DNA of 53,640 nucleotides. Source: Ktedonobacterales bacterium (lineage in GTDB: Bacteria; Chloroflexota; Ktedonobacteria; Ktedonobacterales; DATBGS01). Location of the stretch: contig DATBHW010000014.1 in assembly GCA_036557285.1 (NCBI GenBank), positions 1 to 53,640 of the forward strand, written 5' to 3'. Under the pieces are notes generated by a model. That model made no database searches, was not told where the DNA came from, and saw only the letters and a program-made list of their open reading frames with translations. Below are positions 4,114 through 53,640 of the stretch, piece by piece. How positions within the stretch are numbered: position 1 is the stretch's first letter; each line of letters starts with the position of its first letter. Made by a program: the position numbers and the translations under genes.

Positions 4114-5350
4114 TAGCCGCTTTGCGCCCATTGACGCCGCTGCTTTCGCCGCCAAAAATCTGTATAATGCCGCGCTCTATGAGGTGCGGCAAACCTACAT
4201 CTTTGAACACCGCTACCTTGGAAACTCAGAAGTCTATCATCGGATGAAGCCCACGCCCGCTTATCGTGCCCTGCCGCGCAAAGTTGGAAACTCCATCCTG
4301 CGGCAGTTGGATACGAACTGGCGGGCCTTCTTCGCTGCGCTGGAAGCCTGGAAGGAAGCCCCCGGCAAGTTCCTGGGCCGCCCGAAGCTGCCCAAATACA
4401 AGCACAAAACCAGGGGCCGCTTCCTTTTGATCTATGACCTCCAGGCTCTTTCCCGTCGGGCGCTTGCTCGTGGGCGCCTCCGGCCTTCGGGTCTGGACAT
4501 TGAAGTGCAGACGGGCCACAAAACCGTCAAGCAGGCCCGCATTGTCCCGCGTGCGGGCTACTATGTCGTCGAAATCGTCTATGAACAGGCAGAAGCCGCC
4601 CCGTCCGGCAACCCAGCCCTGGTGGCCTCGGTAGACATTGGCGTGGACAATCTCGCGGCGCTAACCTCAAACAAGCCGGGCTTTGTCCCCCGACTCGTTA
4701 ACGGGCGTCCGATCAAATCCACTAACCACTACTACAATAAGCGGCGGGCGGCATTGCAGGAAGCCTTGAGCCATCTGGGGATAACGGCGCGGATGGCCCG
4801 TCTGACCACCAGGCGGACCCGACGCATCAATCACTACTTGCATACGGCGAGCAAAGCGATTATTGCCCTGCTGGCGCAAGAGGGGATAGGCACGCTCATT
4901 GTCGGCAAGAACGCTGGTTGGAAGCAAGAAGCCGAGCTAGGTCGGGTCAATAATCAGCACTTTGTCGGACTGCCGCATGCCCGCTTTATCCAGATGCTGG
5001 CATATAAAGCGAAGTTGGCAGGCATGCGGTTTGTGCTTCAGGAAGAGAGCTACACCAGCCGCGCCAGTGCGCTTGACAGCGATGCCATGCCCCTCTACGA
5101 TCCGAAGCGGGCAGGCAAGCCCGTCTTCAGCGGCAAGCGCATCAAGCGCGGCTTGTATCAGGCCAGGGACGGGCGCACCGTGAATGCGGACGTGAATGGG
5201 TCCGCCAACATTTTGCGGAAAGCACTCCCAAACGCCTTTGAGGCCGATGGGATAGAGGCCGTTGCAGTTCGGCCCGTCTGGTTAACGTTTGCCTGGTCAG
5301 TCCAGCCCAGGGCGCTGGCGGCAGCGCCAGCCATACCAACCAGTCAATAG
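4076..5350 (+). CDS. tnpB: TnpB-family RNA-guided nuclease (IS605/IS1341 family)
   Basis: 424 residues from the ATG at 4076, which has GGAGGCAGAGG upstream; the longer frame from 4037 has no better site. TnpB proteins are RuvC nucleases guided by an RNA made from the element's 3' end. RuvC motifs are intact: SVDIGVDNLAALT (Asp ~187), LQEESYTSRAS (Glu ~324) and NADVNGSANILRK (Asp ~372). The stretch between the second and third motifs, normally a four-cysteine zinc ribbon, contains no cysteine here; it reads LYDPKRAGKPVFSGKRIKRG. This corresponds to a known zinc-less TnpB branch rather than an obvious knock-out. The frame is uninterrupted, so it may be active. Confidence 0.93.
   Translation: MQLVEQHVIKHSDSRFAPIDAAAFAAKNLYNAALYEVRQTYIFEHRYLGNSEVYHRMKPTPAYRALPRKVGNSILRQLDTNWRAFFAALEAWKEAPGKFLGRPKLPKYKHKTRGRFLLIYDLQALSRRALARGRLRPSGLDIEVQTGHKTVKQARIVPRAGYYVVEIVYEQAEAAPSGNPALVASVDIGVDNLAALTSNKPGFVPRLVNGRPIKSTNHYYNKRRAALQEALSHLGITARMARLTTRRTRRINHYLHTASKAIIALLAQEGIGTLIVGKNAGWKQEAELGRVNNQHFVGLPHARFIQMLAYKAKLAGMRFVLQEESYTSRASALDSDAMPLYDPKRAGKPVFSGKRIKRGLYQARDGRTVNADVNGSANILRKALPNAFEADGIEAVAVRPVWLTFAWSVQPRALAAAPAIPTSQ
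5311..5328 (+). other. Hairpin at the 3' end of tnpB (candidate guide-RNA scaffold / right end)
   Basis: GGCGCTG (5311-5317) pairs with CAGCGCC (5322-5328) across a 4-nt loop, 20 bp before the tnpB stop. In this family the omega RNA is processed from the tnpB 3' end and right end, with the guide lying outside the element, here towards coaD. The assignment is positional only. Confidence 0.4.
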
Positions 5351-7486: not shown

Positions 7487-7562
7487 GGGCGGGCGCTGCT
7501 GCCCAGGAGCAGCGCAGGGTCTACCTGTGCTGCGGTTCCAGCGGGCAATCGCTGCTATGCCT

Positions 7563-7674
7563 ATAATTCAAGCTAGCCATAGTTCAGGCTAGTCATAGTT
7601 CAAGCCAGATATAGTTCAAGCCAGTTCTAGTTCAAGCTAGCCATAGTTCAAGCTAGTCATAATCCAAGCCAGGT
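7563..7674 (+). repeat. Seven tandem 16-bp repeats in the rpmF leader
   Basis: Seven consecutive units of exactly 16 bp (starts 7563, 7579, 7595, 7611, 7627, 7643, 7659), consensus ATAGTTCAAGCYAGYC, with one to four differences per unit. The last unit runs directly into ATAGAGGAGAAAG, the rpmF ribosome-binding region. The array is non-coding and much more AT-rich than its surroundings. Confidence 0.95.
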
Positions 7675-35860: not shown

Positions 35861-36580
35861 TCAACAGGCCGGAGATGTGCGCTCCCAGAGCAAGATTTGC
35901 CGAAAAGGAAAGACTATTCTTATAGCCGCAGAATGCAGCCCTGCCTGATCTGCCAGGGCGCGAGCCTCGCGGGCGGTATAGGCCCGGCGCACCGAAGCAG
36001 GCGCATCATGGCGAGTCAGCCGGTTGGGCATCAGAGTATGTGTGAGCAGCCAGGCTCCCAGATAGGCTGGAAAGCTGCGCTGAAGGTCACTGACGATGAC
36101 AGCGCGCCGACTTATCCGCGCTAGCTCGCGCAGCAGCATGGGCGCATCGTCAGGGGCAAAGTGATGAAGCGCCATCGAACACAATACGAGATCAAACGAT
36201 TGATCTGCATACGAGAGCGACAGCGCGTTTTGCTGCTCCACGTGGATTTCGGGAAAGTCGGCGCAGTTTGTTCGCGCCGAGGCGAGCACCTGCTCGCTGA
36301 TGTCGGTGGCGACGATTTTTGTCTGAAGCTGCTGGCGCTGTGCCCAGCGGGCAATGGCTTTGGGAATATCCGCTGAGCCGGTGGCGACATCTAGCAATGA
36401 GAAGGTTTGAAGCTGCTGGCGCGCCACCGTCTGCGCTACCTGGCTCAAGGCCAGGCTTGTCCAGCCGAGCAGCAGGTTGATGCGGCGAATGTCACGAAGG
36501 TTACGCGCCAGCAGCCCTTGATCGGTTACTGGCGCATCAAGCAATTCTTCAATAGTGTTGTCGCGCTTGCTGAGGTTCAT
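35861..36580 (-). CDS. Class I SAM-dependent methyltransferase
   Basis: 239 residues. SAM motif I SLLDVATGSADIP (61-73), motif with VATDISEQVLASAR, and SFDLVLCSMALHHF. Starts 9 bp after the psd stop, in the same operon. Its C-terminal part (RLTRHDAPASVRRAYTAREARALADQAGL) is typical of methyltransferases near lipid or polyketide genes. Phosphatidylethanolamine N-methylation is an attractive idea from context, but PmtA-specific motifs were not identified. Confidence 0.82.
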   Translation of the reverse strand: MNLSKRDNTIEELLDAPVTDQGLLARNLRDIRRINLLLGWTSLALSQVAQTVARQQLQTFSLLDVATGSADIPKAIARWAQRQQLQTKIVATDISEQVLASARTNCADFPEIHVEQQNALSLSYADQSFDLVLCSMALHHFAPDDAPMLLRELARISRRAVIVSDLQRSFPAYLGAWLLTHTLMPNRLTRHDAPASVRRAYTAREARALADQAGLHSAAIRIVFPFRQILLWERTSPAC

Positions 36581-36589
36581 GCAGTTTTT

Positions 36590-37309
36590 TTACTCGCCGG
36601 ATGTGTTGTAACGGGCAATAGGCGTGATGCCAGCACGCACTTGCTGGCCTGGCTTGACCATTACCTCTATCGTGCCATGTGGGGCCAGCACGTCGGTGCG
36701 CGAACTGAATTTAATCATGCCAAACTTCTGGCCGGCGCGCAGGTGTTCACCCTCGCCAGCCCAGCAGACGATGCGCCGAGCCAGCAGCCCGGCAATCTGC
36801 GCCACTGTGATCCTGCCGTGAGGACCATTGATAGCAACCATGTTGCGTTCGTTAGCCTCAGATTTCTCAAAGTTCATGGCGTTAGCGAATGTGCCAGATT
36901 TCCACCGGAGCTTTATGATTTCGCCCGCCACCGGGCTGCGATTCACGTGAACGTTGAAGACGGAGAGAAAAGTCACGATGCGAGTGGCAGGCCCACCAAT
37001 GAACCAATCCTCATCCACTTGATCAACCGCCATGATCGTGCCGTCAGCCGCTGCATAGATACATGCATCGTCCTGCGGATATGGACGCGGAGGATCGCGG
37101 AAAAAGAAGAGCAGCATGGCCGGAACAAGCCAGAAGAACTTGCCCAGCCAGGGGAGGAGTTTGTTGATGATGAGTGTGGCGACGAGCGCCCCGCCAATAT
37201 AGGGGAGACCTTCTTTGAGCGCGCCCAGTGCGGGCGTGTCAGACTCGATGCGCGCCAGCATCTCTCCAGGAAACTGCGCGGGCTGATTTTTCGCTCCTTC
37301 CAGGCTCAA
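36590..37309 (-). CDS. psd: Phosphatidylserine decarboxylase, short (archaeal-type), with Ser-Ser cleavage site
   Basis: Makes phosphatidylethanolamine from phosphatidylserine. 239 residues from TTG 37309, which overlaps the pssA stop as TTGA; an in-frame TTG at 37330 is the alternative. Membrane helices (GGALVATLIINKLLP, FFWLVPAMLLFFF), FRDPPRPYP, AADGTIMAVD and NVHVNRSPVAGEI are family features. The self-cleavage site, normally FGSR, reads FSSRTDV (codons AGT TCG, 36706-36701), so the residue before the pyruvoyl-forming Ser is Ser, not Gly. Confidence 0.92.
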   Translation of the reverse strand: MSLEGAKNQPAQFPGEMLARIESDTPALGALKEGLPYIGGALVATLIINKLLPWLGKFFWLVPAMLLFFFRDPPRPYPQDDACIYAAADGTIMAVDQVDEDWFIGGPATRIVTFLSVFNVHVNRSPVAGEIIKLRWKSGTFANAMNFEKSEANERNMVAINGPHGRITVAQIAGLLARRIVCWAGEGEHLRAGQKFGMIKFSSRTDVLAPHGTIEVMVKPGQQVRAGITPIARYNTSGE

Positions 37310-38244
37310 GGCTCGTCCTCGCTCTCCCAATCATCATCCCAATCCTCTTCGGCCTCTTCTTCGTCGTCGTCATCGTCCTCATCGTCGGTAACGGTGATGG
37401 TGGTGATCCCGGCGAACTGTGCGCCTGCCGGGCCGGACATCAGGCCAACTGCCGCCGCTGGCATCGCCCGGCGGAAGCGTCGTCGGACGGCGCGCTCGGT
37501 GGACCAGACCAGCGCGTAGAAGGCATAGCCCACGATGATGAGGCTGAGCAGCCGCGCCTGGAAGGGTACCAGCGCCACGACAATTGCCAGCAGAAGCGTC
37601 CATTTCAGCATGAATGGCGCTCGCCCAAAGACCTGACCCAATTTGGGAAACTGGATGTGGCTGCTCATCAGGATGGCCGTCACCAGCACCGCAGCGGCAG
37701 CGGCAACAGGTGGCAGGGTGACACCCCAGAAAGCCAGGCTGGCGATAAACGCTCCGCCAGCCGTCGTGGGTAGACCCTCGAAAAAGCGTGGATTGTATTC
37801 TTTTGTGGCGAAGCGGGCCAGGCGGAAGGCGTTGGAGAAGACAAATGATGACGCGATGGCGATAGCAACGAAGCCCGGCGTAGGTAGCTCGCGCAAAAAG
37901 AGTTGATAAATCATGAAAGCAGGCGCGACGCCAAAGGCAACCAGATCAGCGAACGAATCAAAGTTTTCGCCGAATTTAGAACACGCGCCCAGCGCGCGCG
38001 CCACGCGCCCATCAATGCCATCGCAAAAGACCGCTAACCCTACCAGCAGTGGAATATACACGAAACGATTTGGCTCGCTGGGGTCGGCAGCAAGGACTAT
38101 CCCGACAAAACCCGCTACCAATGCGATAGTCGTAATGGCGCTGGGAAGCCAGATCAGTGCGCCTGGATGGCTGTGGACACCATCCATAGATGCATCTATA
38201 GGCGTTGCAAATGGTTCTTCAGGTGGCGTGCTATGCCCTCTCAC
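37306..38244 (-). CDS. pssA: CDP-diacylglycerol-serine O-phosphatidyltransferase
   Basis: 312 residues from GTG 38244 (AAAGGGAGAG upstream); TTG 38268 is possible. CDP-alcohol phosphatidyltransferase motif D-G-x2-A-R-x8-G-x3-D-x3-D at ~78-100 (DGRVARALGACSKFG). Six or more membrane helices. The C-terminal ~30 residues are unusually acidic (DDEDDDDDEEEAEEDWDDDW) and would lie in the cytosol. Produces phosphatidylserine for Psd, with which it overlaps by 4 bp. First gene of the operon pssA-psd-methyltransferase-SRPBCC. Confidence 0.94.
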   Translation of the reverse strand: MRGHSTPPEEPFATPIDASMDGVHSHPGALIWLPSAITTIALVAGFVGIVLAADPSEPNRFVYIPLLVGLAVFCDGIDGRVARALGACSKFGENFDSFADLVAFGVAPAFMIYQLFLRELPTPGFVAIAIASSFVFSNAFRLARFATKEYNPRFFEGLPTTAGGAFIASLAFWGVTLPPVAAAAAVLVTAILMSSHIQFPKLGQVFGRAPFMLKWTLLLAIVVALVPFQARLLSLIIVGYAFYALVWSTERAVRRRFRRAMPAAAVGLMSGPAGAQFAGITTITVTDDEDDDDDEEEAEEDWDDDWESEDEP

Positions 38245-38363
38245 CTGTGGTCTCTCCCTTTCCGGCAAAAATCTCGCTCTCGCCTTGACTTGAGGATCAA
38301 GAGGCTACAGGCGTGTGCTACAGGTGTGAGTCAAGGCTGGCCTGGAGCAGCGGTTGGCGCGAG

Positions 38364-38391
38364 TGTATAGCACGTCCCTCAAGCTTGTCAA
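38364..38391 (-). promoter_or_regulatory. Promoter of the pssA operon
   Basis: Minus strand TTGACA (38391-38386), 16 bp, TATACA (38369-38364) with an extended TGC. Predicted leader ~115 nt. Confidence 0.8.
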
Positions 38392-38512
38392 TAGCCTCTC
38401 CCCTGGCATCGGAGCATATCTACCCTGGTATCAAGGCGCCAGGTGAATACTTCATTTCTTTCATTATATGATATGCGCTGCACCCCCGGACGCTTGAGTT
38501 GGCTCAGGCGTT

Positions 38513-39796
38513 TCAGGGCGTTTCTATTTCTGTGTGGAGTTCCCGCAGTACGGCAATCAGCCGATCAATTTCCTCGGTGGTGTTGTAATGCGCCAGCCCG
38601 ATGCGCAGCGCGCCCTGTTCGCCCAGGCCCAGGCGTTCCATCAAGGCCATCGCGTAGTAATTGCCGTCCCAGGTGAAGATGCCGTGTTCGCCCAGTTCGC
38701 GGGCCATATCACGAGGGGTATGGCGATTGCTGATACAGGCAACAGTGGGTACGCGGCGGGGCAGGTCTTCGGGGTGTGTCAGCCCCAACAGGCTGAGGCC
38801 AACGATGCTGCTGAGGCAGTCGAGGAGATAGGCGACTAATCCACGCTCATATTCCTGGATGGCGCGCATTGCCAGCTTGAGCGCGCGGCGGCGTCCGCTC
38901 CAGTCGGGATACGTTTCGGGATAGAGGTCGGCATGATCCCGGCCAAGCATTGCCAGATAATCGAGCGCGCCGAGCAACCCTGCAATGCCTTCGTGGTTCA
39001 GTGTGCCGGTCTCGAACTTTCCTGGTGGTTCATTGGGGGCTGGACGCACTTTATAGGCCATCAGTTGTTCCAGCAGCGGGCGCTTGCCATAAAGGATGCC
39101 CAGGTGGGGGCCAAAAAACTTGTAGGCCGAACAGACCAGGAAATCGCAATCCAGCGCGCGAACATCTATGGGGCCGTGTGGCGCGTACTGAACGGCATCA
39201 ACAAAGACCAGCGCCCCGATCTCGCGCGCCCATTTGATAATCGTTGGCAGATCGTTGATAGTGCCTACCGCGTTGGAGGCATAGCCTACTGCGACGAGCT
39301 TGGTGCGCGGCGAGAGCTTGCTGCGGAGATCATCCATATCCAATGTGCAGGTGGCCGGTTGAAACTCTGCGGTTTGGATGACGACATCACTTTCACGGAG
39401 GGCCAGCCAGGGGGCAATATTGGCATCGTGATCCAGTCTGGTTACAAGGATTTCATCGCCCGGTTGGAATGCCTGCCCCAGCGCCCGGCTGATGGCGAAG
39501 GTGAGCGTGGTCATATTCGCGCCGAAGATGATCTCATCCGCGTCGGCGTTAAGGAAATCGGCCATTGCGGCGCGAGCTTCGGCGATAATGGCGTCAGTGC
39601 GGCGGCTGGTGGCAAAGGCGCCGCCGGTGTTGGCATTGGCCCGCGTAAGATAGGCGGTCATCGCGTCAAGGACGGTTGAGGGAACCTGGGTACCGCCGGG
39701 GTTATCGAAAAAGACAAGAGGGTGTTCCTGGATGGTCTGATTGAGGGCAGGGAAGAAGCGGCGATAGGCTTGCAGATCAGGTGAAGGGGCCTGCAT
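38513..39796 (-). CDS. Class V aminotransferase, cysteine-desulfurase-like
   Basis: 427 residues. FFDNPGGTQVP, the PLP lysine in CSAYKFFGPHLGILYG (~235), and the ending RIGLAHYNTTEEIDRLI are typical of the SufS-related cysteine desulfurase-like subfamily. The conserved active-site Cys loop of true SufS is not obvious, so sulfur transfer is uncertain. AGGAGGACACAC before the ATG. No suf genes are beside it. Confidence 0.88.
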   Translation of the reverse strand: MQAPSPDLQAYRRFFPALNQTIQEHPLVFFDNPGGTQVPSTVLDAMTAYLTRANANTGGAFATSRRTDAIIAEARAAMADFLNADADEIIFGANMTTLTFAISRALGQAFQPGDEILVTRLDHDANIAPWLALRESDVVIQTAEFQPATCTLDMDDLRSKLSPRTKLVAVGYASNAVGTINDLPTIIKWAREIGALVFVDAVQYAPHGPIDVRALDCDFLVCSAYKFFGPHLGILYGKRPLLEQLMAYKVRPAPNEPPGKFETGTLNHEGIAGLLGALDYLAMLGRDHADLYPETYPDWSGRRRALKLAMRAIQEYERGLVAYLLDCLSSIVGLSLLGLTHPEDLPRRVPTVACISNRHTPRDMARELGEHGIFTWDGNYYAMALMERLGLGEQGALRIGLAHYNTTEEIDRLIAVLRELHTEIETP

Positions 39797-39888
39797 GTGT
39801 GTCCTCCTGGGGTCGAGCCGTTTTGATGGGTGTTTTTGGCTTCCCCTATTATGACACGATTGCCCGGCAATGCGGTAGGGGGTCTGTG

Positions 39889-40482
39889 CTAGCGCCAGCC
39901 CTGCGGCAGCCTGTTACGTATGCGCTGACGCCAGTGCGAGCGAACCTCGCTCCCCGCCAATACCAGGGTGATGCAGACGCCCAGAAGTATCCAGAGCAGC
40001 CAGACAAACAAGCCCATGATTCCAGCATCTGGCGATATGAGGAATTGCAGCCCGGCCAGCACCGGCCCCACCAGCGGATTCACACTCTTGACCAACCCAT
40101 TGCGCAAGACTGGCTGAAACAGCACGAAGCTGATGACTACGATGGTTGCCAGCATGGAAGAGAGTATCAGGTCTTGCATGGTTGGCCGGAAGCCTGCCCG
40201 ATGGCTTGCTCGTTGCCGGAGCTTGCGTGTTTCGGCTGGCAACTTCTCTGGAGCCTGGGCGGTTGTTTCGGCGATGCGCGCCATGATCGCTTCAGTGAGC
40301 CAGGCTGGTTCGGTGATGTTGCTCAGGCTGTGTATGTCTGCAAGCAAATCTTCAAGCTGCGTCCACTCGAAGCGACAGGCGGCGCAATGAGCCAGGTGGC
40401 GCTCCAAAGCGCGCGTGTGTGACAGACTGAGGCGGTGATCGATATAGAGTTGCAGCAGGCGCTGTGCTCGTGAGCAGATCAT
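39889..40482 (-). CDS. Zinc-finger anti-sigma factor with membrane helices
   Basis: 197 residues. Zinc motif H29-x3-C33-x2-C36 (RHLAHCAACRFEW). Membrane segments LILSSMLATIVVISFVLFQPVL and IMGLFVWLLWILLGVCITLVLAG. Starts in an ATGA overlap with the sigma gene upstream (40479-40482), strong support for a sigma/anti-sigma pair made in fixed ratio. Confidence 0.88.
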   Translation of the reverse strand: MICSRAQRLLQLYIDHRLSLSHTRALERHLAHCAACRFEWTQLEDLLADIHSLSNITEPAWLTEAIMARIAETTAQAPEKLPAETRKLRQRASHRAGFRPTMQDLILSSMLATIVVISFVLFQPVLRNGLVKSVNPLVGPVLAGLQFLISPDAGIMGLFVWLLWILLGVCITLVLAGSEVRSHWRQRIRNRLPQGWR

Positions 40483-41327
40483 GATCTCTCACTCCTTCCT
40501 CGCTCGCCTGCTGATTCCAGGCGCAGGAATGGAGAGGCAAAACGGGCAAGAAGTGAGGGCGCGGGCTTCTCAGAAGCTGGTAGAGGCTGGGGGGCGTTTG
40601 GATGAGTCGGAGATGGAGACGAGGACTCTTCATGCTCCAGCAATTGGAGGCGTTCTTTCAAGAGGTTGCGCGCGCGGAACAGATGGGTTTTGATGGTTCC
40701 CACCGGAAGGCTGAGCGCCTGGGCAATCTCCTCATAGGTCAGTTCTTGCAGATGGCGCAAGATCAAGACGGCGCGATACTTCCCAGGCAGTTCCTGGATA
40801 GCTTGCCGAATAGTCTTCTGGCGCTCTCGGTCAGCGACCAGGGCTTGAATTTCCTGGCCTGATTCCAGGGCCGCCTGATGTTCGGCCTGGGCTGTCGCTG
40901 CATCCAGATCGCGCGTATTACGGCGGCGCTGCTCCAGCATGCGCAGGCAGCAGTGATAAACGACGCGATAGAGCCAGGTGGAGAAGCGCGCTTCGCCTCG
41001 GAAGGTATGTAAGCCCTGCCAGGCCGCCAGAAAAGCTTCCTGAACTGCCTCAGCGGCTTCTTCGTTGTCATTCAACATGCGGAACGCCAGAATAAAGGCC
41101 CGGCGCTGATGGTTGCGTACCAGCACGGCGAAGGCGTCCTGGTCCCCCTGGCATGATCGGCGCACGAACTCCTTTTCGCGTTCAGCCTCCTCGGTGGCCG
41201 ACTGAGTTTGAGGAATGGCCGGGGAATAGGACTCAAAGGCCCGCGCGGAGAGTGGCATCTGCTCGTCATTCATATCCTGTTTGAGCAGAAGCCAGTCTAA
41301 AAAGTTTCGTGAACCATTATGGCTCAT
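40479..41327 (-). CDS. ECF-family RNA polymerase sigma factor
   Basis: 282 residues. Region 2: DAFAVLVRNHQRRAFILAFRMLNDNEEAAEAVQEAFLAAWQGLHTFRGEARFSTWLYRV. Region 4: LPGKYRAVLILRHLQELTYEEIAQALSLPVGTIKTHLFRARNLLKERL. A Ser/Pro-rich C-terminal tail of ~50 residues after region 4 is longer than usual. Coupled to a membrane anti-sigma. Divergent from a membrane gene whose product may belong to its response. Confidence 0.94.
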   Translation of the reverse strand: MSHNGSRNFLDWLLLKQDMNDEQMPLSARAFESYSPAIPQTQSATEEAEREKEFVRRSCQGDQDAFAVLVRNHQRRAFILAFRMLNDNEEAAEAVQEAFLAAWQGLHTFRGEARFSTWLYRVVYHCCLRMLEQRRRNTRDLDAATAQAEHQAALESGQEIQALVADRERQKTIRQAIQELPGKYRAVLILRHLQELTYEEIAQALSLPVGTIKTHLFRARNLLKERLQLLEHEESSSPSPTHPNAPQPLPASEKPAPSLLARFASPFLRLESAGERGRSERS

Positions 41328-41418
41328 ACGGCTCCTCAGCGATCAGTAGTGGTGCGCGAGCATTGCCAGGGCTTTCTTGCCAGCGCGGCGTTCTGCTTGA
41401 GCCAGCTTTCTTTGTCCC

Positions 41419-41447
41419 ATATAATAACACGAAACAAAATATTGCAA
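41419..41447 (-). promoter_or_regulatory. Possible promoter of the ECF sigma operon
   Basis: Minus strand TTGCAA (41447-41442), 17 bp, TTATAT (41424-41419) in an AT-rich stretch. The fit is moderate; an ECF-type promoter was not recognised. Confidence 0.4.
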
Positions 41448-41480
41448 CATATGCTCTTACTCCAGAAGCCATATGGTAGA

Positions 41481-41489
41481 TGGTAAGAT
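41481..41489 (+). promoter_or_regulatory. Possible extended -10 promoter of the DUF6249-like gene
   Basis: TGG-TAAGAT (41481-41489), ~39 bp before the ATG at 41528; no clear -35. Confidence 0.45.
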
Positions 41490-41527
41490 AGAGACCAGAC
41501 GCAGATTGGTTGCCAGGAAAGAAAACG

Positions 41528-42130
41528 ATGAATGATCTCCTTGTGCTTGCTTTGGGCTGGTTGCTCGTCTTAATTGTTTTTCTGAGCTTTCTCTCGCTGC
41601 GGCGCTATCTGGAACACCGCGAGCGTATGGCAATGATTGCGCGTGGCATTACCCCACCCGATAAACGGCGCAACACATTGCCGAAGCCCTTGCTCATCAG
41701 GCGAGCGGGAGTCCTTCATGGTGGCCTGATTACCGCGATGGTTGGTCTGGCGTTGACGTTGGGCCTCTACCCCATTGGTTTTTACATGCCGCCGTCGTTA
41801 GTCAGTCCATACCATCTTGGCCCCTGGCTGCTGGCCGGGCTGATTCCGCTGGCCGTTGGCTGCGCGCTTATCCTGGGGCATTATCTTACGCCTGGTCGCC
41901 CGATGGAACTGCCACCTGCCGCGCGAACCGATCATTCAGAGGGCCTGGCCCATATCCGCCAGACAGAGGCAGACCCACTCGATGCTCCTTCGCCGAGGGC
42001 TGAGCCGATTGCGCTGCCGGAGTCACGGCGCTGGACGCTTTATCGCCGGGCGCCCGGTGAATCTGCTGGACCAGTGGGGCGTGATGGAGAAGATGCCGAC
42101 GATGGACCACTTCCAAAAGTCGAAGCCTGA
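41528..42130 (+). CDS. Small membrane protein, DUF6249-like
   Basis: 200 residues from ATG 41528 (AGGAAAG upstream). Membrane helices LLVLALGWLLVLIVFLSFLSL, GGLITAMVGLALTLGLYPIGFY and LGPWLLAGLIPLAVGCALILGHYL. Between the first two sits a conserved-looking EHRERMAMIARGITPPDKRR, as in DUF6249 proteins that often accompany ECF sigma factors. The C-terminal 60 residues are polar. Divergent from the sigma/anti-sigma pair, so it may be part of that stress module. Confidence 0.65.
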   Translation: MNDLLVLALGWLLVLIVFLSFLSLRRYLEHRERMAMIARGITPPDKRRNTLPKPLLIRRAGVLHGGLITAMVGLALTLGLYPIGFYMPPSLVSPYHLGPWLLAGLIPLAVGCALILGHYLTPGRPMELPPAARTDHSEGLAHIRQTEADPLDAPSPRAEPIALPESRRWTLYRRAPGESAGPVGRDGEDADDGPLPKVEA

Positions 42131-42163
42131 TGGGGCCAGCAGCACTGCTATGGAGCCTGCTGG

Positions 42164-43279
42164 CTATTCCCCCAGCCAGAGGTGATTGTATGTCTGCCAG
42201 TCGCTCTCGGTAGTCAGCCAGAGCGGATAGATAGCGATGCCGCCGAAGTGGCTGGTATCTTCCCCGCTGTTGAGGCCAGCCGTCACGCCGCGCAGGCCAC
42301 TGAACATATTCTCGGCTGAGTCGTGGAAGCCTGGCCCATTATCATGATAGGTGGGGATGCCAATCAGCACCTGGGCTGGGTGCTGAGCGTGGCTGTTGGC
42401 GTCCAGGATATGCGCTGTCTCCTGTTTGACCAACGTTTCATAGAGGTCGGCTGTTGGCAGCGCGGTGTTGTACATCATCACTACCAACTGATCGATGTGA
42501 GAGCTGACGATGAGAAAATAATAGGTGGTCCACCAGGCCGTCCCTCGCCCGGAGATGGCCTGGACGAAGGGGATAACGCGCGCGGCTGGCGCCCATTTGG
42601 GTGCTGATATGGAAAGGACTTTGCTGGAACCGATGGCGGCGCGTGTCTCATCGAGTAGATCGATAAAATGGGGGTTAAGGTTGTGAACCGGCTCGATGTC
42701 GTAATGGATGCCATCAAAGCCGAGAGCCTGGGTAAAGCGCCGGGCCTCGGCAGCGATATTGGCGCGCGTTTGCGCGTTGGACATGTCAAGAGGTCCGCCG
42801 CCATCTTTCTCGATCTGTCCTATCCAGGCCAGGATTTTGAGATTGGGCAGGCGTGACTTCATCTCGCGGACAAAAGCAGCGGCGTTGGGGTAGAGGTCCA
42901 ATGGAATGGTCCCGTCGCCATTAAGCGGGCCGACGTGGGGAAAGAGGTAGCCAATCTGTTCCTGTCTGAGCAGGGCTGCCAGGTCATCATATTCCTGGGG
43001 CGTGTGCGATTCTCCAACCCAGGCATGCTCCGCCCAGACGGCGTTTTGCTCCTGGTTGAAGTGCGCGCCGCTGAAATTGGTCTCGGTGGCATTGAGCCGC
43101 CACCAGAGAAACCCGACCAGCACCGTCAAGAGCGCCAGGGCAATACCTGCTGCCCGCAAGAGCCGCCAGTACCAGCGCGTCGTATTGGGAAATGTATCAG
43201 CCGACTTTTCGAGCTTCGGTTTCCGTATCGTTTGCAAGGCGTTCACCTGCGCCAGAAAGAGTACTCTTTCTGGCTGCAA
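42164..43279 (-). CDS. Membrane-anchored GH18-like glycoside hydrolase homologue
   Basis: 371 residues from TTG 43279; GTG 43246 is an alternative, and neither has a strong ribosome site. One N-terminal membrane helix (AAGIALALLTVLVGFLWWRL) then a TIM-barrel-like domain with DGIHYDIEP (189-197), recalling the DxxDxDxE active strand of GH18 chitinases with Glu195 as the likely acid. VVMMYN and AIYPLWLTTESDW fit late barrel strands. It may act on cell-wall or extracellular glycans. A 24-bp palindrome overlaps its 5' end. Confidence 0.72.
   Translation of the reverse strand: MQPERVLFLAQVNALQTIRKPKLEKSADTFPNTTRWYWRLLRAAGIALALLTVLVGFLWWRLNATETNFSGAHFNQEQNAVWAEHAWVGESHTPQEYDDLAALLRQEQIGYLFPHVGPLNGDGTIPLDLYPNAAAFVREMKSRLPNLKILAWIGQIEKDGGGPLDMSNAQTRANIAAEARRFTQALGFDGIHYDIEPVHNLNPHFIDLLDETRAAIGSSKVLSISAPKWAPAARVIPFVQAISGRGTAWWTTYYFLIVSSHIDQLVVMMYNTALPTADLYETLVKQETAHILDANSHAQHPAQVLIGIPTYHDNGPGFHDSAENMFSGLRGVTAGLNSGEDTSHFGGIAIYPLWLTTESDWQTYNHLWLGE
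43251..43274. repeat. 24-bp perfect palindrome at the 5' end of the GH18-like gene
   Basis: GCCAGAAAGAGT followed directly by its reverse complement (43251-43274). It lies between the two possible start codons (TTG 43279 and GTG 43246), so it is either a coding-overlap operator or a leader hairpin that would occlude the start region. Confidence 0.9.
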
Positions 43280-51656: not shown

Positions 51657-53522
51657 ATGTGCGGAATTGTTGGCTATGTTGGCGCGCAGCAGGCAACCCC
51701 CATCTTACTCGATGGCCTGCGGCGCTTAGAGTATCGCGGCTATGACTCGGCGGGGATTGCGGTGCTGGGGAATGATGGTAGGGTGGCAGTGCGCAAGCGC
51801 GCGGGCAAACTCGCCAATCTGGTTGGCGTCATTCAAGATGATGGCCCCCTTGGCTCGGTAGGGATTGGGCATACCCGCTGGGCAACACACGGTCGGCCAA
51901 ATGATGATAATGCCCATCCCCACAGCGATTGCCAGGGTGAGATTTCGGTGGTGCATAATGGCATCATTGAGAATTACGCCGAACTGCGCGAGGAACTGCG
52001 CAGCCAGGGGCATCAGTTTCTCTCTGAGACTGATACGGAGGTTCTGGCGCACCTGATTGAGTCGCACTATGCCAGGACCAATGGCGATCTGCTCAAAGCG
52101 GTACGCCTTGCGTTGGGTCGGGTAACTGGCACGTATTCTATTGCGGTAGTCAGCCAGCGTCACCCGGATATGTTGATCGGCGCGCGTTATGCTGGCCCAC
52201 TGATTGTCGGACTGGGTGAGCATGAGCAATTCCTGGCTTCGGATATTCCTGCTTTGCTGAAGCACACACGCCAGGTCATCATTCTGGAAGAAGGCGAGTT
52301 GGTGGCGCTTCGACCAGAGAGCGTGGAACTCTGTGATCTGGCGGGGAATCGCATTGTGCGCGAGCCGCTTACGATTGAGTGGGATGTGGAGGCAGCAGAG
52401 AAGGGCGGCTACGACCACTTCATGCTCAAAGAGGTTCACGAGCAGCCGGAGGCCATTCGCCGCGCGTTGCTGGGTCGCCTGATCGAAACGCCGTCCGGGC
52501 TGGAGCTTCGCCTGCCGGAATTGGGCGCACTGGAAGTCCAGGGCGTGCTGCACCGCATTCAGCGGGTGGTGGTGGTGGCCTGTGGCACGTCCTTATATGC
52601 CGGGTTGATTGCAAAATACATGCTGGAGCAGTGGGCACGTATCCCGGTGGAGGTGATATCGGCTTCTGAGTTTCGCTACAGTGATCCTGTGGTTGGGGCG
52701 GAGGTCTTGTGCCTTCCCATTACCCAGTCTGGAGAGACGGCTGATACGCTGGCCGGAGTGCGCCAGGCACGTGATGGTGGCGCGCCGGTCATTTCGCTGA
52801 CGAACACCGTGGGCAGCGCGATCACGCGCCTCTCAGATGCGGTGCTCTATCTCCAGGCCGGGCCGGAGATCTGTGTCGTGGGCACCAAGACGTTCGTGAC
52901 GTCGGTCACGGTGCTGGCGCTGCTGTCGCTCCACCTGGGGTGCCTGCGCGGGACGCTGAGCGCCGATGAACTGGCGCGGGTGCTCGCTGGCCTCGAGGCG
53001 ATCCCGGGGCAGATGCAGCAGATCCTGGACCGGGCGGACCGTGGGGAGGACCACCTTCAGGCAGTGGCGCGCAAGCTCTCCACCTGCTCGAGCTTCATGT
53101 TCATCGGCCGCGGCGCGGGCTACCCGATCGCGCTGGAGGGGGCGCTGAAGCTCAAAGAAGTTTCGTACATTCACGCGGAGGGCTATCCTGCTGGTGAATT
53201 GAAGCATGGACCTATTGCACTGCTGGACCCCGATACGCCGCTGCTGGCGATTGCTACTGCCAGTAAAACGTATGATAAGGTTATCAGCAATATTCAAGAG
53301 GTTCGTGCCCGTGATGCGCGCGTCGTGGCGGTGGCCACCGAAGGAGACGCGGCCATCGCGCAGCACGCCCACGACGTGTTCTACGTCCCCTCCGCGCACG
53401 AGCTACTCGCGCCCCTGCTGCAGGTGATCCCGCTCCAGCTGTTCGCCTATCACGCGGCGATCGCGCGCGAATGCAGCATCGATCAGCCGCGGAATCTGGC
53501 CAAATCGGTAACAGTCGAGTAA
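51657..53522 (+). CDS. glmS: Glutamine-fructose-6-phosphate aminotransferase
   Basis: Makes glucosamine-6-phosphate from fructose-6-phosphate and glutamine, the entry to peptidoglycan precursors. 621 residues; AGGGAGGAG before the ATG. N-terminal nucleophile Cys2 (MCGIVGYVG), GIGHTRWATHG and the glutaminase half end near residue 240. Then two SIS domains (CGTSLYAGLIAKY, ITQSGETADTLAGVRQA, TKTFVTSV) and the C-terminal QPRNLAKSVTVE. The 3' part switches between very GC-rich codons (~52860-53150 and ~53305-53500) and normal ones. Followed at once by transposon-end-like repeats. Confidence 0.98.
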   Translation: MCGIVGYVGAQQATPILLDGLRRLEYRGYDSAGIAVLGNDGRVAVRKRAGKLANLVGVIQDDGPLGSVGIGHTRWATHGRPNDDNAHPHSDCQGEISVVHNGIIENYAELREELRSQGHQFLSETDTEVLAHLIESHYARTNGDLLKAVRLALGRVTGTYSIAVVSQRHPDMLIGARYAGPLIVGLGEHEQFLASDIPALLKHTRQVIILEEGELVALRPESVELCDLAGNRIVREPLTIEWDVEAAEKGGYDHFMLKEVHEQPEAIRRALLGRLIETPSGLELRLPELGALEVQGVLHRIQRVVVVACGTSLYAGLIAKYMLEQWARIPVEVISASEFRYSDPVVGAEVLCLPITQSGETADTLAGVRQARDGGAPVISLTNTVGSAITRLSDAVLYLQAGPEICVVGTKTFVTSVTVLALLSLHLGCLRGTLSADELARVLAGLEAIPGQMQQILDRADRGEDHLQAVARKLSTCSSFMFIGRGAGYPIALEGALKLKEVSYIHAEGYPAGELKHGPIALLDPDTPLLAIATASKTYDKVISNIQEVRARDARVVAVATEGDAAIAQHAHDVFYVPSAHELLAPLLQVIPLQLFAYHAAIARECSIDQPRNLAKSVTVE

Positions 53523-53533
53523 GCTTGCTCGGG

Positions 53534-53640
53534 TGTTGTGAGAGTTGTCCCTTTAGAATAGTGTTGTGCGCTTTAGAATAAAGTTCTGTGCTTTAGAATA
53601 AAGTATTGCACAATCCGTCCCTAAAGAAGCGGGCTTTGTT
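53534..53640. mobile_element. Candidate end of a Tn7-like transposon downstream of glmS (continues beyond window)
   Basis: 11 bp after the glmS stop comes TGTTGTGA, then three direct 20-bp units (53541-53560, 53561-53580, 53581-53600). Each ends in CTTTAGAATA, and a fourth, degenerate start follows (AAGTATTG). An 8-bp terminus beginning TGT followed by ~20-22-bp repeats is the build of Tn7-type ends (TnsB sites), and the 3' side of glmS is the classical attTn7. Also, AGAATAAAGT resembles Tn7's own ACAATAAAGT. Transposase genes would be outside the window, so this is a candidate only. Confidence 0.5.

Follow-up and report, generated by a model that had tools for sequence, protein, structure and literature searches.

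The final 95 bp of the window (the whole stretch of DNA analyzed here, i.e., the complete contig C14 of genome G000, 53,640 nucleotides long) very probably represent one end, the right one next to glmS, of a Tn7-family transposon located at attTn7, with its tip at position 53546. These 95 bp are the readable part of the putative element. The following features, all on the forward strand, were identified at the end of the contig.

51657 to 53522, forward: glmS (glutamine--fructose-6-phosphate transaminase), an open reading frame (ORF) of 621 amino acids matching NCBIfam TIGR01135 (E value of 4.3e-240)
53484 to 53519, forward: TnsD-binding region of attTn7 (last 36 bp, within the glmS coding sequence)
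53541 to 53545, forward: copy next to glmS of the predicted 5-bp target duplication (AGAGT), immediately outside the TGT at 53546
53546 to 53556, forward: putative transposon tip, TGT plus 8 nt (TGTCCCTTTAG), spaced as in the reference right ends
53555 to 53574, forward: TnsB-binding-like site 1 (AGAATAGTGTTGTGCGCTTT), first of an array with a 20-bp period
53575 to 53594, forward: TnsB-binding-like site 2 (AGAATAAAGTTCTGTGCTTT) of the same 20-bp array, with the core AATAAAGT in common with the right end of Tn7 (Tn7R)
53595 to 53614, forward: TnsB-binding-like site 3 (AGAATAAAGTATTGCACAAT) of the same 20-bp array
53615 to 53640, forward: first bases of the putative element interior, up to the end of the contig

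Anatomy of the end beside glmS

The sequence-only reading had proposed a Tn7-type end at this position, and its alignment with right ends of known Tn7-family elements supports the proposal. The references were those of E. coli Tn7 (TGTGGGCGGACAATAAAG), Staphylococcus pLEW6932 (TGTAGGTTTGAAATAAAG), and Peribacillus (TGTAGATTTGAAATAAAG), the last two of which sit immediately upstream of tnsA. The spacing at the tip is common to the window end, Tn7R (TGTGGGCGGAC), Staphylococcus (TGTAGGTTTGA), and Peribacillus (TGTAGATTTGA), the reference right ends having AATA exactly 11 nt downstream from the first base of the TGT. At the end of glmS, only the TGT at 53546 (TGTCCCTTTAGAATAGTG) shows this spacing, and it is followed by AATA at 53557 and, in exact 20-bp steps, at 53577 and 53597, that is, at +20 and +40 past the first one. 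The TGT at 53534, originally taken as the tip, is indeed present (TGTTGTGA), but both this one and the TGT at 53537 have the wrong spacing to the first AATA and were discarded. Moving the tip to 53546 has two consequences. The distance to the glmS stop (53522) becomes 23 nt, close to the 25 nt found in E. coli and Paenibacillus, so that the previous reservation about a gap of only 11 bp falls away. In addition, the predicted target duplication is AGAGT instead of TCGGG, following the rule that the duplication is formed by the five bases outside the TGT, which in E. coli Tn7 gives GCGGG on both sides.

The location also agrees with what is known of Tn7, whose right end lies about 20 bp after the glmS stop and whose TnsD-binding sequence corresponds to the last 36 bp of the gene (PMC2918618). 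In the window, 31 of these 36 nucleotides are identical to those of E. coli, and the end nearest to glmS has the features of a right end.

Tn7-like ends are defined by arrays of TnsB sites (PMC8649781). The three repeats described in the sequence-only reading were recovered with the exact period that had been given, since CTTTAGAATA appears at 53551, 53571, and 53591, precisely 20 bp apart, and Tandem Repeats Finder reported a period of 20 between 53551 and 53604 (score of 80). Allowing one mismatch, 0.91 copies of CTTTAGAATA would be expected by chance, against the three found. The first site (AATAGTG) deviates from the AATAAAG core. To assess the rarity of the complete Tn7R-type anatomy, we scanned for the pattern TGT-N8-AATA-N15..17-AATA-N15..17-AATA. 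The window yielded a single match and 200,000 Markov simulations of the contig tail yielded none. In 0.96 Mb of other DNA, the pattern was found only beside the glmS of one relative, G037, and at one locus of another, G033 (each counted several times because of overlapping loci). Repeats scattered over many unrelated loci had been named as a result that would speak against a transposon end, but the pair of CTTTAGAATA-type units has no other copy in the 5.1-Mb genome. Nor were the last 17 bases of the contig repeated exactly anywhere else in the genome. Far from glmS, at positions 7562 to 7672, the window contains a further tandem repeat, with a 16-bp unit (ATAGTTCAAGCTAGTC) present about seven times.

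While the anatomy of the end and the site of insertion can be read from the DNA, the protein steps are taken by analogy from Tn7. TnsD would have bound the conserved 3' end of glmS (as described for Tn7 in PMC2918618) and recruited TnsC, which would act as a bridge to the TnsA/TnsB transposase bound at the right-end sites spaced by 20 bp. TnsA/TnsB would then have inserted the element about 23 bp past the stop codon, in the orientation of Tn7, with the right end nearest to glmS and leaving the gene intact.

Insertions downstream of glmS in related genomes

To evaluate how widespread these ends are, we examined a sample of 47 genomes of the class for the end of glmS followed, after 15 to 45 nt, by TGT-N8-AATAAAG. 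The exact pattern was present at 8 sites in 7 of the 47 genomes, and the reversed pattern at none. When up to one mismatch was allowed, the motif appeared after 10 of 35 glmS loci, nine of them at 22 to 28 nt past the stop. Among 377 control stops only three matched, all of which turned out to be glmS itself, leaving 0 matches in 374 other gene ends. Such an association of the motif with glmS gives further support to a Tn7-type end at attTn7.

These figures also bear on the origin of the repeats from a different kind of mobile element. Elements of the IS21 type likewise have TG..CA tips, and a related transposase recognises their internal repeats, so that the window might contain the terminus of an IS21-family element, or of another one with multiple subterminal repeats, located beside glmS by chance. 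We consider this hardly credible, given that the distance from the glmS stop is fixed at 22 to 28 nt in nine of the ten relatives, always in the Tn7R orientation, that the motif is missing from the 374 other gene ends, and that the spacing is the same as in Tn7-family right ends adjoining tnsA.

Three of the relatives carry inverted partner ends. In G036, assembled as one contig of 8.9 Mb, an inverted and a direct Tn7-type end abut 4.7 kb after glmS (L043, about 5020 to 5060) as ...TTTGCTTCCACA-CCTCT-TGTGGAAGCAAA..., separated by exactly 5 bp (CCTCT), the arrangement left by successive or tandem Tn7 insertions, and with no tns genes in 18 kb. G045 has a right end at position 25 and an inverted left end at 2691, i.e., 2.7 kb apart, with CTGAG outside both ends, although on the right the register is shifted by one base. 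G046, too, has an inverted end adjoining a direct one, six bases apart. Furthermore, the distance from glmS to the next conserved gene was 266, 2,818, 4,004, and 12,792 nt in four genomes of one related genus. An interval that varies from 0.27 to 12.8 kb within a single genus indicates that the site downstream of glmS takes inserts.

In those genomes carrying such ends in long contigs, profiles of TnsA, TnsB, TnsC, and TnsD gave nothing convincing within about 18 kb downstream of glmS, and the TnsA family matches of the class were located elsewhere in the genomes, away from this gene. We observed strong hairpins directly after the orphan ends downstream of glmS at loci L015, L021, L025, L013, and L019, and at L025 the orphan end itself is part of a terminator-like hairpin. 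Both the lack of tns genes nearby and the hairpins, which in G001 have the motif built into them, would also fit a host sequence, the repeats being simply the native 3' untranslated region or terminator of glmS. However, the motif is missing at the glmS of most relatives, the downstream intervals differ by kilobases within one genus, and inverted partner ends are found in G036, G045, and G046. Searches of the window end against Rfam, for phages, and for terminators also gave no matches, neither an RNA family nor a terminator call. Altogether, a host origin of the repeats seems very unlikely, and a transposon end remains the preferred interpretation.

A more general proposal is that the Tn7-type ends present at attTn7 in this class, some in tandem and without tns genes nearby, would be either nonautonomous elements mobilised in trans by distant tns genes or relics retained for a host function, for example, in the termination of glmS transcription; at present, we regard it as an unlikely one.

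Transposition genes and a candidate partner contig

The sequence-only reading had suggested that tnsABCD and cargo might lie in the kilobases following the end. Our search of the assembly (96.9% complete) did not confirm this, as the contig ends at 53640 and there was no TnsA family match and no canonical TnsB. A truncated tnsD is located near a Tn7-type end on another contig, C4 (see below). The TnsB profile did find a TnsA-TnsB fusion on contig C25, indicating that it would have detected a canonical TnsB as well. A Mu-C match on contig C34 was rejected as TnsB, being a weak domain match in a 403-amino-acid ORF with no similarity to TnsB, TnsC, or TnsD. Since canonical TnsA and TnsB are missing from an assembly that is ca. 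97% complete, and since tns genes are likewise missing around glmS in the relatives with such ends, the copy in the window is probably decayed or nonautonomous rather than complete, and it is quite possibly a leftover. A CRISPR-associated transposon (CAST) had also been suggested, but nothing points to one; the interior of the element lies outside the assembly.

The fusion found on C25 belongs to a second Tn7-like element (positions 35901 to 42285, L042:3101-9485), which contains TniQ, the TnsA-TnsB fusion (883 amino acids), TnsC, and a second TniQ/TnsD, and in which no cas genes were noticed. It is located about 20 nt 3' of a tRNA-Pro gene and has end repeats (TTACATGAATCTTAGACCAT) with a 20-bp period. 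Its different repeats and different target (tRNA-Pro) led us to reject this element as the source of the window end.

Contig C4 (53,651 bp) ends inside another would-be Tn7 element (51757 to 53651, L080:17758-19652). The TGT at 51757 starts a Tn7-type end (TGTAGCCGGACAATAAAGTTGGGTCTCGGACAATAAAGTTGGGTCT) containing two perfect 20-bp sites (GGACAATAAAGTTGGGTCTC). Farther inside, a partial tnsD whose product matches PF15978 (E value of 4.7e-62) points at this end. The gene is missing about 200 N-terminal residues and has a stop codon upstream, and also upstream of it, at the very end of the contig, is the start of an IS701-like transposase (weak match), by which the gene is apparently interrupted. 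The nearest relatives of this TnsD are plasmid-borne proteins of Calothrix (31%) and Staphylococcus (28%), with none detected in the genomes of the class or in the genome-contig database. A 276-amino-acid ORF reads across the transposon end on C4, and the last 98 bases of this contig are present only once in the assembly.

The ends of C14 and C4 might belong to one element, composed of the right end described here, tnsABC in an assembly gap, a tnsD broken by an IS701-like insertion, and a left end running inwards from 51757. This would be a special case of the Tn7 right end. Both contigs break inside a would-be element, the partial TnsD is directed at a Tn7-type end whose orientation fits a left end, and insertion sequences such as the one suggested by the IS701 transposase-like start are a usual cause of contig breaks. 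Nevertheless, the C4 end is flanked on the outside by GGAGC (joined orientation) instead of AGAGT, the tails of the sites differ between both contigs (AAGTTCTGTGC versus AAGTTGGGTCT), no other contig carries a canonical TnsA or TnsB, and a search for synteny between C4 and the regions downstream of glmS in relatives gave none. A left end with AGAGT outside was not found in the assembly, C4 and its GGAGC being the sole candidate. Joining C14 and C4 into one element thus appears rather doubtful.

Comparison with known Tn7-family elements

The results indicate that attTn7 beside glmS is a hot spot of insertion in this branch, probably of the Chloroflexota, just as in Proteobacteria and Firmicutes. 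They also indicate that short end signatures are enough to detect such insertions at the ends of contigs. The genome is probably Ktedonobacteria-like, and its glmS has as nearest named relative, at 56%, that of an uncultured Chloroflexi MAG. As Tn7-related elements had already been reported in Chloroflexi (PMC8649781), what is gained is mainly a wider range and the pattern of ends lacking transposase genes.

Compared to E. coli Tn7, the window end has the same TGT followed by 8 nt and the first site, the same site spacing of about 20 bp, the AATAAAGT core, and the proximity to glmS. It differs in that three sites are visible, with other tails, whereas Tn7R has four, and in that E. coli Tn7 has tnsABCDE whereas the contig ends without reaching a transposon gene. 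The right end of Paenibacillus sp. ACRRX (L136; TGTAGCTTTAAAATAATG), situated 25 nt past glmS, belongs to the same 25-nt distance class and presents the same spacing, with a site ATTTAGAACAAAGTTTGAT that resembles CTTTAGAATAAAGTTCTGTG, but there the end is directly followed by matches to tnsA, tnsB, and tnsD. A three-site Tn7R-like array was also observed 28 nt past the glmS stop of Clostridium bovifaecis (L174), and the 10 kb after it gave no match to TnsA, TnsB, or TnsD. The glmS ends of the class (G036, G045, G046, and others) share TGT-N8-AATAAAG, mostly 22 to 28 nt after the gene, although most have one or two sites, and their surroundings lack tns genes over about 18 kb. Within the same genome, the C25 element is also of the Tn7 family and has 20-bp end repeats, but it differs from the window end in the target, the repeats, and the fusion of TnsA and TnsB. 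Its TnsAB/TniQ/TnsD core resembles that of CAST I-D, a system homing to a tRNA gene. Among these systems, the window end is a fairly ordinary further member of the known Tn7 family.
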